A stretch of DNA of 64,000 nucleotides from Halanaerobium saccharolyticum (GTDB lineage Bacteria; Bacillota; Halanaerobiia; Halanaerobiales; Halanaerobiaceae): assembly GCF_004362045.1 (NCBI RefSeq), contig NZ_SNWX01000003.1:124001-188000 (forward strand). The letters are read 5' to 3'. This document shows positions 56,259 to 61,729 of this stretch, in pieces. Within the stretch, counting starts at the first letter, position 1. Every line of letters starts with the position of its first letter. The position numbers and the translations under genes are program-made. Under the pieces are notes generated by a model. That model was not told where the DNA came from, did no database searches, and saw only the letters and a list, made by a program, of their open reading frames with translations.

Positions 56259-56693
56259 ATGAGAATTGATGCTCCAATTGGAAAATGGATTGCTAAATTG
56301 TATAAAGATCATGATCAATTTGTTGATAATTTGCTGGCGGATTATAATTTAAATCACAGTGAAGGAAATTTACTTGTTTATTTATACAAAGATGGAGATG
56401 GGATTAGTCAAAACAAACTAAAGGAAAATTTAGCAGTAGACAAAGCTACAATTTCGAGGGCCATCTATTCACTAATTGAAAAAGATTATTTAAAGAAAAG
56501 AAAATCTCCAGAAGACGGTAGAGTTAATTTAATTTATTTAAGTGAAAAAGCAGAGGCTGTCAAAGAAGAAATAAATGATATTTATCAGCAGTGGTTTCAA
56601 ATTTTTATTGATAAAATAGGAGAAAAAGAAGCTAAAAGAGTACTTGATAATTTAAAAAAGATGTATCAGATTGTTAAAAATAGAGACAATTAG
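56259..56693 (+). CDS. MarR-family transcriptional regulator
   Basis: A 144-residue winged-helix regulator. The DNA-binding part (about 35-95) includes ISQNKLKENLAVDKATISRAIYSLIEKDYLKKRKSPEDGRVNLIYLS in outline, with the wing DGR motif typical of MarR. AGAGAGGTGA precedes the ATG. Two palindromes in its promoter are the likely binding sites. It is the first gene of an operon with an RND exporter, a LolA-like protein and an outer-membrane protein, which it probably controls in response to a small toxic or lipophilic ligand. Confidence 0.88.
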   Translation: MRIDAPIGKWIAKLYKDHDQFVDNLLADYNLNHSEGNLLVYLYKDGDGISQNKLKENLAVDKATISRAIYSLIEKDYLKKRKSPEDGRVNLIYLSEKAEAVKEEINDIYQQWFQIFIDKIGEKEAKRVLDNLKKMYQIVKNRDN

Positions 56694-56736
56694 TTATCAT
56701 TAATTTCGGGTACTGCAAAAATTGGAGGATAATAAA

Positions 56737-59421
56737 ATGGAAAAGATATTAAAACACAATAAATTAATAATCACTGTAATTTTTTTAATAACCTTATTTT
56801 TTTTATTTCAGCTGCCTGATCTAGAAATAAATAATGATATTGAAGTTTTTCTGCCTGATAATAATCCGGTTAAAATGAGTAATAATCAGTTAAAAGATAT
56901 TTTTGGAGCAAGTGAAGGGCTGGTAACCGCAGTTAAGTTTGATCAGGGATCAATATTTGAAACTAAAAACCTTAAAGTTATTAAAAATTTAACAGCAGAA
57001 ATCGAAAAGCTAAAAAATGTTGAGGAAGTTCGTTCTCTCACTAATGTAGATTATATTGAAGGTACAGCGGAAGGAATGATTGTTGAACCACTGGTTAAAG
57101 ATTTACCCCGGAGTGAAAGTGAAATAATCAATTTAAAAGAAAAAGTTTTAAGTTGGGATCTTTATCAGAACAATCTTTATTCTAAAGATTTTAAGTCAAC
57201 ACAGCTTTTAATAACTCTCAGTAAAAAATTAAGTGCAGATGAAGAAAGCAGAGTGTTTTATCAGGTAAAAAAAATTGTAGATAGTTATCAGGATCAGGGA
57301 GTTGAAACTTATATTTCTGGGTCTACAGCAGTGAATGTCTTAATGGGAGATCATATGATTCAGGATATACGATTTTTGATCCCAATTATAACATTTGTTT
57401 TAATTTTGACCTTATATCTATTTTTTCAAAAAATATTACCTGTCTTATTGGTTATGTTAACAGTAAGTATCAGCACCATCTGGGCTGTTGGGTTAATGGC
57501 CTATCTTGGTATAAATTTGACTCTTGTTTCGACAGTGATCCCGGTTCTTTTACTGGCGGTTGGCAGTGCTTATGGAATTCATATTTTAAGTCACTATTAT
57601 GATGGTCTGGCAGAATTAGATAAGGATTTTACAGCGGAAAAAAATAAAGAAATTATTATTTCCACAATTAATCATCTGGGAAAACCAGTTTTTTTAGCTG
57701 CCCTAACTACTTTTGTTGGTTTTGGTTCTCTTGCTTCCAGCAAGATAGTTCCAATCAAAACTTTTGGTATCTTTACGGCAATTGGTATTATAGCTGCTTT
57801 TTTAATGGCTCTATTTTTAATCCCATCTTTACTGATGCTAAATAGATTATCTAAAAAAAATAATAATTTCAATAAATTGAATCATTTTGAATCATTAATT
57901 TTTAGTCTTCATAATTTTTATAGTAAAAGACGAATTACAATTATTATAACTGCTGTATTAATTGTTATAATTTCTGTTATGGGTTTTAATAAAATAGTTG
58001 TTGATACACCTTTGATTGAAATGTTTAAAGAAAGTAGTGAAATAAGACAGGCAGATAATTTTATTAATAATAATTTTGCTGGCACAAATATTATGAAGGT
58101 TTTAATAGAAGGAGAAGAGAGAGGGAGTCTAAATAATCCGAAAATTTTAACTGAAATGGATAACTTACAGCAAAATTTAGAAAGTGATTTTGTTTCAGTA
58201 GGGAAGGCTACATCTATTAGTGATTATATTAAAAGAATGAACCAGGTGCTGCATTATCCAGCAGCCAATACAAAATCGCAGACCGGAAATAAGGGCAGTA
58301 CAAATGATGATACTGCTGAGGACACTTCATCCTTTTACCAGGGTGACAGCTCCGAAGATAATGAGGATAATAATGAAAAGACAACTTCTTCTTTTTATAA
58401 AAGCTCAGACTCAAGTTCGAAAGCAGGTTCAAGTTTTTATCAGGAAAATGAAGAAGAAAGTCAGAATCAAATTCAAAAACAAATAATTGAAGGGCCTGAT
58501 AAAGAGAAAAAGATTTCTGAATTAAAATTTATAAAACTATTAAGCAGTGCTATTGCAAGAGGGGAGAAGTTAAACTTAACAGCTGCCGAAATGGTTGAAC
58601 TTTTAAAAGTAGAAATGAATTATAATGGGGCAGCATATTATGAAATTCCAAATGATTTAAAAAAATATGGAGCTGAATCAATGGAGGATTTAAGCAATTT
58701 AATTTCCCAATATTTACTTCTTTATTCCGGGAGTGTTGATGATTTAATCAATAATCAGTTGGAACCAGATAAAGCACAGATGCTGGTTCAAATTAAAGAT
58801 CCCAGTAATATAACAGCTTTTAAAATAAAAAAGAAAATAGATAATTACAGCAGCCAGAACTTTCCTGAAGGCTATAAAACAACTGTTTCCGGATATGCAA
58901 CAATGGCTCTGGAAGCAAATAGATTAATTGTAGGCAGTCAGATAAGAAGTATTGCAATTTCCTTTTTGATAGTATTTATTATCGTAGCTTTATCATTTAA
59001 ATCAATTATTGCTGGTATATATGGAATTATACCGCTGGCATTTTCCCTGATTATCAATTTTGGTTTAATGGGTCACTTTGGAATTAAATTAGATGTTGGA
59101 ACAGCAATGGTTGCTTCAATCGCAATCGGGATTGGGGTAGACTATACTATTCATTTTCTGCACAGTTATCATCAAAATAGATTGAAAAATGAGGACTTAC
59201 ATCAGGTAACAAGAGATACTTTAGCTTCTACAGGTAAGGCAATTATCTTTAATGCAATTTCTGTAGCAGCAGGGTTTTTGGTGCTTTTATTTTCGAACTT
59301 TTATCCTCTTGTTTATCTGGGATTATTAGTAGCAGTAACTATGTTTACATCTTCACTTGCTTCAATGACAATTTTACCACTATTATTAAATCTATTTAAA
59401 CCAAAGTTTATTAAAAAATAA
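56737..59421 (+). CDS. RND/MMPL-superfamily exporter with SSFY-repeat insertion
   Basis: An 894-residue exporter of the MMPL/HpnN-like RND group. First helix (about 10-26), extracytoplasmic loop 1 (about 27-200), a block of five helices (about 208-375), a seventh helix (about 400-418), loop 2 (about 420-740), and a second block of five helices to the end; ASIAIGIGVDYTIHFLH is typical. Loop 2 carries a disordered Ser/Asp/Glu/Asn-rich insertion (about 508-590) with SSFY at 531-534, 551-554 and 565-568. The ATG at 56737 follows TTGGAGGAT. It is expected to move lipids or lipophilic compounds; there is no adaptor or TolC gene nearby. Confidence 0.85.
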   Translation: MEKILKHNKLIITVIFLITLFFLFQLPDLEINNDIEVFLPDNNPVKMSNNQLKDIFGASEGLVTAVKFDQGSIFETKNLKVIKNLTAEIEKLKNVEEVRSLTNVDYIEGTAEGMIVEPLVKDLPRSESEIINLKEKVLSWDLYQNNLYSKDFKSTQLLITLSKKLSADEESRVFYQVKKIVDSYQDQGVETYISGSTAVNVLMGDHMIQDIRFLIPIITFVLILTLYLFFQKILPVLLVMLTVSISTIWAVGLMAYLGINLTLVSTVIPVLLLAVGSAYGIHILSHYYDGLAELDKDFTAEKNKEIIISTINHLGKPVFLAALTTFVGFGSLASSKIVPIKTFGIFTAIGIIAAFLMALFLIPSLLMLNRLSKKNNNFNKLNHFESLIFSLHNFYSKRRITIIITAVLIVIISVMGFNKIVVDTPLIEMFKESSEIRQADNFINNNFAGTNIMKVLIEGEERGSLNNPKILTEMDNLQQNLESDFVSVGKATSISDYIKRMNQVLHYPAANTKSQTGNKGSTNDDTAEDTSSFYQGDSSEDNEDNNEKTTSSFYKSSDSSSKAGSSFYQENEEESQNQIQKQIIEGPDKEKKISELKFIKLLSSAIARGEKLNLTAAEMVELLKVEMNYNGAAYYEIPNDLKKYGAESMEDLSNLISQYLLLYSGSVDDLINNQLEPDKAQMLVQIKDPSNITAFKIKKKIDNYSSQNFPEGYKTTVSGYATMALEANRLIVGSQIRSIAISFLIVFIIVALSFKSIIAGIYGIIPLAFSLIINFGLMGHFGIKLDVGTAMVASIAIGIGVDYTIHFLHSYHQNRLKNEDLHQVTRDTLASTGKAIIFNAISVAAGFLVLLFSNFYPLVYLGLLVAVTMFTSSLASMTILPLLLNLFKPKFIKK

Positions 59422-59449
59422 AGTTAAATAATAAGAGGAGGAATTAAAA

Positions 59450-60265
59450 ATGAGAAAAATATTAGATTATCGATACACCTTAGTTTTATTAACTGTTTTG
59501 ATGGTTTTTACAGTTTCATTCTCAGCTACAGCCATTAATGGGCGTGAGGTAATGGAGAGAGTAGAAGATAGAAAGAGTGGAGAAACTCAGCATGCTCTGC
59601 TCGGGATGGATCTCATTGATCAGGAAGGTAATGTCAGAGCAAGAGTTGTAGAAATCTGGTCTCAGGAAAATAAAAATAATTTAAGGGAAAGTGTAATGGT
59701 TTTTCATGAGCCAGCGTCCATTGAAGGGACTCGTTTTTTACAGATAGAAAATAAAAATTCAGATGATGATCAGTGGATCTATTTACCTGATTTAGGAAGA
59801 GTTCGAAGGATTGCTGGGGGTCAGGGTAGTGATTCCTTTATGGGAACAGATTTTACCTATGATGATTTAAAATCTAGAGATATTAATGATTTTAAATATG
59901 AATTGCTGCGGGAAGAAAAATTTAATGGTTACCAGACCTATGTAGTAGAGGCAGTACCAAAAAACCCAGCAGCTGAACAGTATGCAAAAACAATTTCCTG
60001 GGTCACAAAAAAACATTATATTCCAATTAAATTGGAAATGTATGATAAAGAAAGCCAGAAACTGTATAAAGTGATGACAGTTAATAGTGAGATCCAAAAA
60101 ATTGATGGGATCTGGACTGCATTTTCTGCCACAATGGAAAATTTAGAAACAGGTCACAGTACGCGCTTATATATTCAGCAGCGCGGTGGTAATTATCTGC
60201 TGGAATATAATAAGAATATTGATGACAGCAGGTTTACTCAACAGTTCCTTAGAACGGGAAGATAA
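59450..60265 (+). CDS. LolA-like outer-membrane lipoprotein-sorting protein
   Basis: A 271-residue protein of the outer membrane lipoprotein-sorting family (LolA-like fold, PF17131 type). Signal peptide (about 10-28, cleavage near SATA). The typical run IYLPDLGRVRRIAGGQGSDSFMGTDFTYDDL and the later VTKKHYIPIKLEMYDKESQKLYKV are clear. Members accompany RND/MMPL exporters and are thought to carry a lipid or hydrophobic substrate across the periplasm. GAGGAGGAA precedes the ATG; it lies 28 bp behind the exporter. Confidence 0.88.
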   Translation: MRKILDYRYTLVLLTVLMVFTVSFSATAINGREVMERVEDRKSGETQHALLGMDLIDQEGNVRARVVEIWSQENKNNLRESVMVFHEPASIEGTRFLQIENKNSDDDQWIYLPDLGRVRRIAGGQGSDSFMGTDFTYDDLKSRDINDFKYELLREEKFNGYQTYVVEAVPKNPAAEQYAKTISWVTKKHYIPIKLEMYDKESQKLYKVMTVNSEIQKIDGIWTAFSATMENLETGHSTRLYIQQRGGNYLLEYNKNIDDSRFTQQFLRTGR

Positions 60266-60328
60266 ATTTCGGTCTCATCAGTTAAACAAAGAAAGAGATA
60301 AAATACTATCTAATAGGGAAGTGATATA

Positions 60329-61729
60329 ATGTTAAAAAATAAAGCTAAGTTGATTATATTAGCAGCCGCAGTTGTCCTTTTAATTGGCAGTGCTTCTGCT
60401 GCTGCCCAGGGAGGTATGAGTTTTTATGAGAAGCAGGAAGAAACTGAAACAGAAATTAGTGGTGAACTTAATCCCCAGTTTCGAATATTTTCGGAGGGAG
60501 AGATCAATGAAAACTTAGACGGCAATCTTGATATTTCCTATCCCGGTCAGACTCATGCTTTTAAGTCCTTATTGGATTTTCAACCCGGGGCTGTTAAGGA
60601 AATAGAATTTAAAGAACTCTATTATAAGTATTATGGAGCTAAATATAATTTTTTGATTGGTAAAAATATTGTTATCTGGGGTAAAGGAGATCAGCTGCAT
60701 GTTGTTGATAATTTGAATGCAGAAGATCTGAGTGATTTTATAAATCCTGATTACAAAGAGCGACAAATTGGAGAAGAAATGATTAAAATTGATCGTTACT
60801 TCCGGGGAGGAAACGCAAATTTAGAGTTTGTTTATACACCTGATTTTACTCCCAATCGTCTGCCAGAAGATCCAGATAGTCCTTTAGGCAGCTGGATTAT
60901 TAATCCATTTTCCAGACAAATGAGTCTGCCCGAGTTAGAAAGAGCTACTGGTTTAAGTACAACTGAGATTATTAATCAGGTAAAGGAATCTGCAGCAGAT
61001 GAGGAAAACCAATTTGCTCTCCGCTATACTGGCACCCGGGGTGGAACCGATTATGGTTTTAGTTATTATAATGGATATTTACGAGAGCCCAGTTATGATA
61101 AAGCAGCTCTTATGGCAGAATTTAAAGACTTTAAGGCAGGTAGTTCCAGTTTTGACTCTGTTTTAGAAGCTGCTGATCTGCAGTATAATGAAGTTGGTGT
61201 TTTTGGTTTTGAGCTGGCTCGAGTAATTGCTGATATTAACAGCCGGTTTGAACTGGCTTACTACAGAACCGATGATACTGAGGGCAGTGATCCAGCAGTT
61301 AGGAATAACAAAATAGCCTGGGTAATTGGTGGTGATCGCGATCTTCCTATCAGCAACCTTAATTTAAATCTGCAGTTTATAGGAGAGAAAATACTGGATG
61401 ATGATCAGATAGGAAATAATATAGCCTCTATAAATGGAAAGCGAACTAATATTGATCTGCAGTATAATGAAGATGGAGATTATACTACAAATAGAGCTGT
61501 CCTGAAATTAGAAGATAGTTATCAAAACAAAAAGATTATTCCCCAGCTCACCTGGGTTTATAACTTAAGTGAACACGATTATACTCTGGAAGCAGCAGTT
61601 GATTATGAGCTAAAACAGGATTTAGTTCTAACAGTATCTCATAAAATTTTTAGCGGTGATCGAGATACTACTTTTGGTCAATTTGAAGACAATGACTATT
61701 CAGCTTTTACTTTAAGTTATAGTTTTTAA
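60329..61729 (+). CDS. Probable outer-membrane beta-barrel protein (DUF1302-like position)
   Basis: A 466-residue secreted protein with a signal peptide (cleavage about 25-29) and an amphipathic beta-strand pattern with a C-terminal aromatic residue (TLSYSF), the usual end of outer-membrane barrels. Many strands alternate polar and hydrophobic residues (NIVIWGKGDQLHVVDNLN, GFSYYNGYL, RFELAYYRTD). In Proteobacteria the exporter plus LolA-like plus DUF1302 barrel trio is common; I infer the same role here from position. The mature N-terminus carries SFYEKQEE (31-38), echoing the exporter's SSFY repeats. AGGGAAGTGA precedes the ATG. Confidence 0.75.
   Translation: MLKNKAKLIILAAAVVLLIGSASAAAQGGMSFYEKQEETETEISGELNPQFRIFSEGEINENLDGNLDISYPGQTHAFKSLLDFQPGAVKEIEFKELYYKYYGAKYNFLIGKNIVIWGKGDQLHVVDNLNAEDLSDFINPDYKERQIGEEMIKIDRYFRGGNANLEFVYTPDFTPNRLPEDPDSPLGSWIINPFSRQMSLPELERATGLSTTEIINQVKESAADEENQFALRYTGTRGGTDYGFSYYNGYLREPSYDKAALMAEFKDFKAGSSSFDSVLEAADLQYNEVGVFGFELARVIADINSRFELAYYRTDDTEGSDPAVRNNKIAWVIGGDRDLPISNLNLNLQFIGEKILDDDQIGNNIASINGKRTNIDLQYNEDGDYTTNRAVLKLEDSYQNKKIIPQLTWVYNLSEHDYTLEAAVDYELKQDLVLTVSHKIFSGDRDTTFGQFEDNDYSAFTLSYSF

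Follow-up and report, generated by a model that had tools for sequence, protein, structure and literature searches.

A lone-aromatic motif shared by an RND exporter and its outer-membrane partner: a candidate docking tag for a LolA-like shuttle

In lipid and lipoprotein traffic it is an open question how a soluble shuttle recognizes its proper donor in the inner membrane and its proper acceptor in the outer one, and in this article I ask whether that question can be approached through an operon of Halanaerobium saccharolyticum in which an RND exporter and an outer-membrane protein (OMP) carry the same short motif, with the gene for a LolA-like periplasmic protein between them. The operon lies at positions 56259–61729 of the forward strand (as do all features below) of the window, the whole stretch of 64,000 nucleotides that was analysed, and begins with a MarR-family regulator (56259–56693; PF12802 and PF01047 above cut-off) whose place upstream of the RND gene is kept in Halanaerobiales operons. 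The RND/MMPL exporter itself (56722–59421, 899 aa) belongs to the MMPL/RND superfamily PF03176 (173.7 bits in two stretches, cut-off 20.5) and is HAE3-like in that TIGR00921 is its nearest subfamily, its 255.4 bits lying below the cut-off of 351.9; the hopanoid exporter HpnN was ruled out (124.6 against 751.85 for TIGR03480 and 97.7 against 1100 for NF052374). The LolA-like protein (59450–60265), which is the proposed shuttle and has Arg95 and a C-terminal FLRTGR, is a member of PF17131 (LolA_like, 216.8 bits, cut-off 30), and its nearest solved structure is 9tp6 (4e-45), named LolA3 of Porphyromonas gingivalis, while the orthologue in operon L009 matches LolA1_Flavo weakly (E 0.0063, 16 bits against 100). 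LolA proper takes lipoproteins from LolCDE; this operon has a gene for an RND protein and none for LolCDE. The last gene (60329–61729) probably encodes an outer-membrane beta-barrel, judging from its signal peptide, strand-rich sequence and C-terminal Phe; its product had no match in Pfam at E 0.001, DUF1302 included, and none in NCBIfam. A tripartite pump of the AcrAB-TolC type was also ruled out, the places of adaptor protein and TolC-type factor being taken in the operon by the LolA-like protein and a single-chain OMP.

The motif was first pointed out in a first-pass annotation of this DNA, which described three SSFY copies in the second periplasmic loop of the RND protein and an MSFY at the mature N-terminus of the OMP, and all four are there. 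The RND copies (58327–58338, 58387–58398 and 58429–58440) sit in an acidic, Ser-rich insertion (58243–58500) that is predicted to be flexible, is found only in this subfamily and is missing from the RND paralogues of about 760 aa; in the L009 RND orthologue this region has a pLDDT of 20–26, in a model that is poor as a whole. The residue numbers originally given for these copies are correct when counted from an internal ATG (MEKIL...) and lie 5 below the count from the TTG. The MSFY of the OMP (60416–60427) follows directly after the signal peptide in an acidic tail that has counterparts in the orthologues.

In each of the 15 complete Halanaerobiales operons the RND protein has 3–4 copies and the OMP tail has one, and co-occurrence in relatives, on which the original proposal hung, holds for every Halanaerobiales operon where both proteins are readable. 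The 15 loops contain 52 copies of xF[YF], where 5000 shuffles of their residues gave a mean of 2.4 and a maximum of 9; Tyr or Phe follows 52 of the 55 loop Phe residues and Ser precedes 51 of those 52, so recurrence of SSFY in the RND loops is not chance. The spacers separating the copies are poorly conserved, and AGY (46) and TCN (5) codons both serve for the Ser that precedes FY, which places the conservation at the level of the protein. Sequence exchange between the RND and OMP genes was considered and rejected, the Ser codon classes differing from copy to copy.

Covariation of the letters in the two proteins reaches beyond the Halanaerobiales, to the Halobacteroidales, where the RND protein has TSSFGEE repeats and the OMP has SFG or SFE tags, and to the Spirochaetota, where the tags in both proteins read FG, FF, SFSSF or even DDWGDS. 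Further relatives of this Trp lineage were located as well. Spirochaetal pairs, with the RND protein given first, include DDWGDSGDDWGDS and QDDWGSDE, LPFSFFEEE and QELSFFEEG, SDDFGDFGNFEEE and SLGDFGFDDEE, and VDSFFDDED and QDSFFDDSN. An operon's RND protein and OMP have 1.71 aromatic 3-mers in common per pair versus 0.64 for random pairing; none of 2000 pairing shuffles attains the observed 1.71, and the excess is kept at every level of clustering. The letter after F correlates between the two proteins (rho 0.69 for G, 0.63 for F and 0.85 for Y) and does so inside the Spirochaetota too (G 0.67, F 0.71). Presence is likewise both-or-neither: in paralogous operons whose RND protein is without the insertion the OMPs are without such a tail. 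In L166 the motif is present in the RND protein and the OMP has only QFDELEQ. The pairing of the motif between the two proteins, as read from these sequences, is operon-specific.

It might be objected that no interaction need be involved and that the two segments merely reflect a composition bias common to secreted disordered regions, since both are acidic and Ser-rich and the number and spacing of the RND copies vary as slippage products would. This is already contradicted by the pairing tests, in which shuffled OMP tails share 0.51 aromatic 3-mers with their own loop against the 1.71 observed (0 of 1000) and re-pairing within groups, at 1.0, also falls short; moreover, the Ser codons differ among the copies and the tag is missing from other secreted proteins of the genome that was scanned, and I regard the objection as very improbable.

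That scan covered 1.9 Mb, or 83% of the genome, of a relative (G014) rather than H. saccharolyticum itself, and outside this RND protein and this OMP the motif occurs there in just one secreted protein, unrelated to them, as a lone DFF; only one secreted protein besides the pair has a comparable acidic start. Wide occurrence in unrelated secreted proteins, the other outcome that would have spoken against the original proposal, was thus not seen in this portion of G014, and a general tag of secreted proteins is rejected, the other secreted proteins scanned being without the motif. The same result bears on the idea that the RND loop and the OMP tail share a periplasmic binding partner from outside the operon, for instance a chaperone for assembly, a protease or the cell wall. 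Three motif-bearing RND genes (L165, L179 and L182) have no adjacent homologous OMP, so that other partners may exist; however, a general chaperone would mark many clients where essentially two proteins bear the tag, and the letters covary operon by operon even between the duplicates in one spirochaete genome (G461), of which L171 is of the FG type and L172 of the FF type. I consider such a component distinctly unlikely.

The first-pass annotation had proposed that the two proteins dock to a common partner, plausibly the LolA-like protein, and of these two parts docking of the RND loop and the OMP tail to one partner is well supported by co-occurrence, covariation and restriction, whereas the LolA-like identity of that partner is supported indirectly, by operon position, clade-specific residues and two all-or-none lineages. 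Arg95 and a C-terminal end resembling [FY]LxxG[RK] are each found in the LolA-like protein of 45 of 45 motif-bearing operons and of 0 of 25 motif-less ones, a contrast that descent explains for the most part, as both features largely follow the clades. Two cases run counter to descent, and in them all features come or go together: the RND proteins of L191/L192 are nested in the motif-bearing clade (support 0.98) but are without the loop and have beside them a LolA-like protein of the kind seen in motif-less operons, and L189 branches outside that clade yet has loop, tail, Arg95 and C-terminal end. These lineages also weigh against direct contact between the two membrane proteins, in which the RND arm would enter a periplasmic pocket of the OMP otherwise filled by the OMP's own tail, or the reverse; the tag would then serve as a bridge or gate, and the receptor would not be the LolA-like protein. 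Identical letters on both sides would suit two arms competing for a single pocket, a stretch of some 80–100 inserted residues could in principle extend a long way through the periplasm, and OMPs paired with loopless RND proteins are without the tail; but this would leave unexplained why, in both lineages that run counter to descent, the type of LolA-like protein goes with the motif, and I judge direct contact to be unlikely.

Against the LolA-like protein as the receptor stands that it is itself acidic in the Halanaerobiales (net -6 to -32), so that a simple match of opposite charges with an acidic motif is not supported. A bump-and-hole test in the Trp lineage (L183) gave no significant clustering of big-to-small changes in its LolA-like protein (p about 0.2). 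Two natural read-through fusions, one joining the LolA-like protein to the OMP (from the window) and one joining the RND protein to the LolA-like protein (from L009), were modelled with AlphaFold2 from a handful of close homologues; the models have mean pLDDT of 37 and 41 and therefore say nothing on docking, and a Foldseek search with the first served only to name LolA-fold relatives. There is precedent in the LolA-fold proteins RseB/MucB, solved with RseA/MucA (6in9, 6jau and 3m4w). A literature search, with subscription papers outside its reach, found no report of the motif.

Taken as a whole, the best explanation is a tag by which the LolA-like shuttle docks at either membrane, and I think it is rather likely to be right. 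The insertion in loop 2 of the RND protein and the N-terminal tail of the OMP would be two flexible periplasmic arms bearing one short linear motif, a lone aromatic residue (F or W) in acidic surroundings, usually with Ser, Asp or Gly before it and Tyr, Gly or Phe after it, and both would dock at a common site of the LolA-like protein whose gene lies between theirs. With its multiple copies the RND protein would hold the shuttle close to its exit while lipid or other hydrophobic cargo is loaded into the half-barrel cavity, and the identical tag of the OMP would then catch the loaded shuttle, which would unload there; alternatively, transport would run inward and the shuttle be reloaded at the OMP. 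The sequences themselves show that the motif exists, that in the genome scanned it is restricted to these two proteins but for the lone DFF, that both proteins have it or neither does, and that its letters covary operon by operon; the common partner, its LolA-like identity, the cargo and the direction are what I infer. The tag alters in step in both proteins across two bacterial phyla, as would be expected if both catch the same shuttle. An interchangeable, covarying tag on two membrane proteins would make the question of donor and acceptor testable by short peptides, and it would join as one system the poorly known RND–LolA-like–OMP operons found in diderm Firmicutes and in spirochaetes.

Among known systems, LolCDE-LolA-LolB has an inner-membrane machine that passes hydrophobic cargo to a LolA-fold shuttle and on to an outer-membrane acceptor; here an RND protein stands in place of the ABC transporter and a barrel protein in place of LolB, and docking is proposed to occur via a repeated linear motif at both ends. 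RseA-RseB and MucA-MucB likewise have a LolA-fold periplasmic protein, solved there in complex with the periplasmic portion of a protein of the inner membrane, but they serve stress signalling rather than transport, and no OMP bears the peptide a second time. The L182 RND protein (G498), whose loop reads DDFGVFKTF and whose gene is followed by one for a LolA-like protein, is presumably TP0790 of Treponema pallidum. TP0790 has been modelled as an AcrB homologue sharing the MacA-like adaptor TP0965 and TolC-like factors (PMC8407342). If the two are the same, TP0790 resembles the Halanaerobium RND protein in its loop motif and following LolA-like gene, and the operon evidence would favour a LolA-like shuttle over an AcrB-type assembly, which suggests that the AcrB-like assignment be reconsidered. 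By description, a close likeness in gene content is to AmeABCD of Castellaniella defragrans, where the HAE3-affiliated RND protein AmeD, the LolA-superfamily AmeB (DUF1329) and the DUF1302 OMP AmeA are co-expressed and deletion makes the cells less tolerant of monoterpenes and increases their accumulation of Nile Red; unlike the Halanaerobium operon it has an additional protein, AmeC, and the available part of that report mentions no shared motif (PMC6394551). Finally, if the docking hypothesis holds, multivalent lone-Phe motifs (SFG, TSSFGEE) on flexible chains at both ends of a shuttle's route would recall the FG nucleoporins, by analogy only, the proteins being unrelated, the copies far fewer, the spacers strongly acidic and a pore mesh absent. 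It is then conceivable, as a tentative thought on which I would not yet bet, that bacteria have a counterpart in principle of FG-repeat transport, in which a LolA-fold lipid shuttle hops between matched lone-Phe/Trp chains on an RND protein and a barrel, and in which a motif code may keep parallel systems in one cell apart.

The window belongs to a Halanaerobium genome, whose nearest named relatives are Halanaerobium species. Four co-directional genes at 56259-61729 encode a MarR regulator, an RND/MMPL protein of 899 aa (the inner-membrane exporter, hereafter RND), a LolA-like periplasmic protein and, as the fourth, a putative outer-membrane barrel protein (OMP) of 466 aa with a signal peptide, for which no family was matched in Pfam or NCBIfam searches. 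The first-pass annotation had placed a common SFY motif in RND and OMP, and its coordinates and motif letters are right for both, with residue numbers that count from an internal ATG: SSFY occurs three times in an acidic, Ser-rich insertion in the second periplasmic loop of RND, and MSFYEKQEETE directly follows the OMP signal peptide.

Orthologous operons were gathered from the order and class, giving a Halanaerobiales set of 15 with both genes complete, and here xF[YF] occurs 52 times in the RND insertions (2.4 expected by shuffling), with Ser before 51 of the 52 copies, Tyr or Phe after 52 of the 55 Phe, and inter-copy spacers that, unlike the motif copies, have diverged. One [SGD]F[YF] lies just behind the signal peptide of the OMP in every operon of this set, and the co-occurrence in relatives that the first-pass annotation had named as a check of its docking idea is thereby found in 15/15. 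Two genomes of the same family (G005 and G008) are the only ones in this set with an SFF tail and also the only ones whose loops have SSFF alongside SSFY, a match that may reflect a single event. The alternative, that such motifs are widespread among unrelated secreted proteins, does not hold in the 1.91 Mb scanned of the 2.31-Mb, one-contig genome of the relative G014, where SFY is clustered only in the RND of the motif-bearing operon and, as a chance pair, in a frame of 95 aa, and where 2 of 224 heuristically predicted secreted proteins start with the motif in acidic context, namely the operon OMP and an unrelated 662-aa protein. The mature chain of the latter, encoded near G014:C1 1122587, begins ESDFFENVDEN, the only other comparable acidic FF start found.

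Beyond Halanaerobiales the letters change together in both proteins. Genomes of another order of the class, which by inference from taxonomy is Halobacteroidales, carry a series of TSSFGEE-type repeats in the RND insertion and OMP starts such as ESAFDEGNSSSTEESSFSDAGFESSFGENSNSFG and FGGGFGDDFG. One match pointed to a Spirochaetaceae genome, and following this up within the phylum Spirochaetota led to 28 of 296 genomes, where insertion and tail have letters in common operon by operon: DDWGDSGDDWGDS with QDDWGSDE in a Trp lineage (L183), LPFSFFEEEGTEDGLFFFEEE with QELSFFEEG (L162), SDDFGDFGNFEEE with SLGDFGFDDEE (L170), VDSFFDDED with QDSFFDDSN (L172), and LSSFSSFGDDSFSSFGF with ESFGGFDDFSDGFSDGFG (L180). 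Genome G461 has two operons, L171 and L172, one of FG and one of FF type, each internally matched; FG and FF operons also occur together in G607, G615 and G568, and such genomes could reveal whether motif letters insulate both systems.

Pairing was quantified in 47 operons as the 3-mers with F or W common to loop and tail, with re-paired operons as the reference. When clustered at 75% identity of the RND (35 operons), true pairs have 1.71 in common, random pairs 0.64 and pairs redrawn within Halanaerobiales, Halobacteroidales and Spirochaetota 1.0; none of 2000 shuffles reached the true value, the same holding at 60% (20 operons), and shuffling tail residues gave 0.51 (0/1000). The letter after F/W also correlates between loop and tail (rho 0.69 for G, 0.63 for F, 0.85 for Y; in Spirochaetota alone 0.67 for G and 0.71 for F), with kinship handled by clustering and grouping only and the Y value depending on how Halanaerobiales differ from the other groups.

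Paralogous operons in the same genomes have RND proteins of ~760 aa free of the insertion (L003 in the window's own genome), and their OMPs are barrel from the outset, lacking the acidic tail. A loose tail pattern is found in 46/47 motif-bearing operons versus 4/16 others, in which it lies outside acidic tails. As exceptions, the OMP of L166 offers merely QFDELEQ, and L165, L179 and L182 have no adjoining homologous OMP. L182 (G498:C1:852100-860300) is probably from Treponema pallidum Nichols, its RND gene then being TP0790, published as AcrB-like; its loop reads DDFGVFKTF, and a LolA-like gene comes next with no homologous OMP directly downstream. TetR-like regulators stand beside Halobacteroidales and spirochaete operons (L086, L088, L122, L130), versus MarR in Halanaerobiales.

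The LolA-like gene lies between those for RND and OMP in nearly all motif-bearing operons. Comparing 45 LolA-like proteins from these with 25 from motif-less operons, Arg95 is present in all 45 and in 0/25 (there G, A, S, K or V), and a [FY]LxxG[RK]-like C-terminus in 45/45 versus 0/25, a contrast that for the most part follows clades. This end is conserved as [FY]Lx[TN]G[RK], often literally the final residues. L191 and L192 have an RND that groups within the motif-bearing clade with support 0.98 but has lost the insertion, and this is a natural part swap: their LolA-like proteins are of the other type, with neither Arg95 nor the C-terminal feature, and the downstream protein is non-homologous. 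L189 has all four features, the insertion, the tail, Arg95 and the C-terminus, although it falls outside the motif-bearing clade in both trees, a placement that could be due to long branches. Because these four features come and go jointly, the sequences point to the LolA-like protein as receptor of the motif, with few independent events behind this. Compensating cavities in the LolA-like protein of the Trp lineage were tested for, with no significant result. LolA-like charges do not complement the motif in any simple way.

LolA-fold proteins bind acyl chains in their half-barrel. Structures of MucB/RseB solved with MucA/RseA illustrate that this fold can, in addition, bind an inner-membrane protein via the latter's periplasmic portion. 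The multi-copy RND insertion would hold the LolA-like protein, as the putative shuttle, near the pump and the one or few copies in the OMP tail would capture it once loaded, identical tags at both ends allowing a reversible, loading-driven hand-over. Should the shuttle indeed bind the motif, FG nucleoporins would offer a likeness of working principle alone. No report of the paired motif was found in the searchable open literature, and a transport system with a matched, covarying linear motif at both membrane ends would be new; RND–LolA-like–OMP operons are already known as a kind, and the nearest studied system by gene make-up is AmeABCD, for which a role as monoterpene exporter was proposed (PMC6394551).
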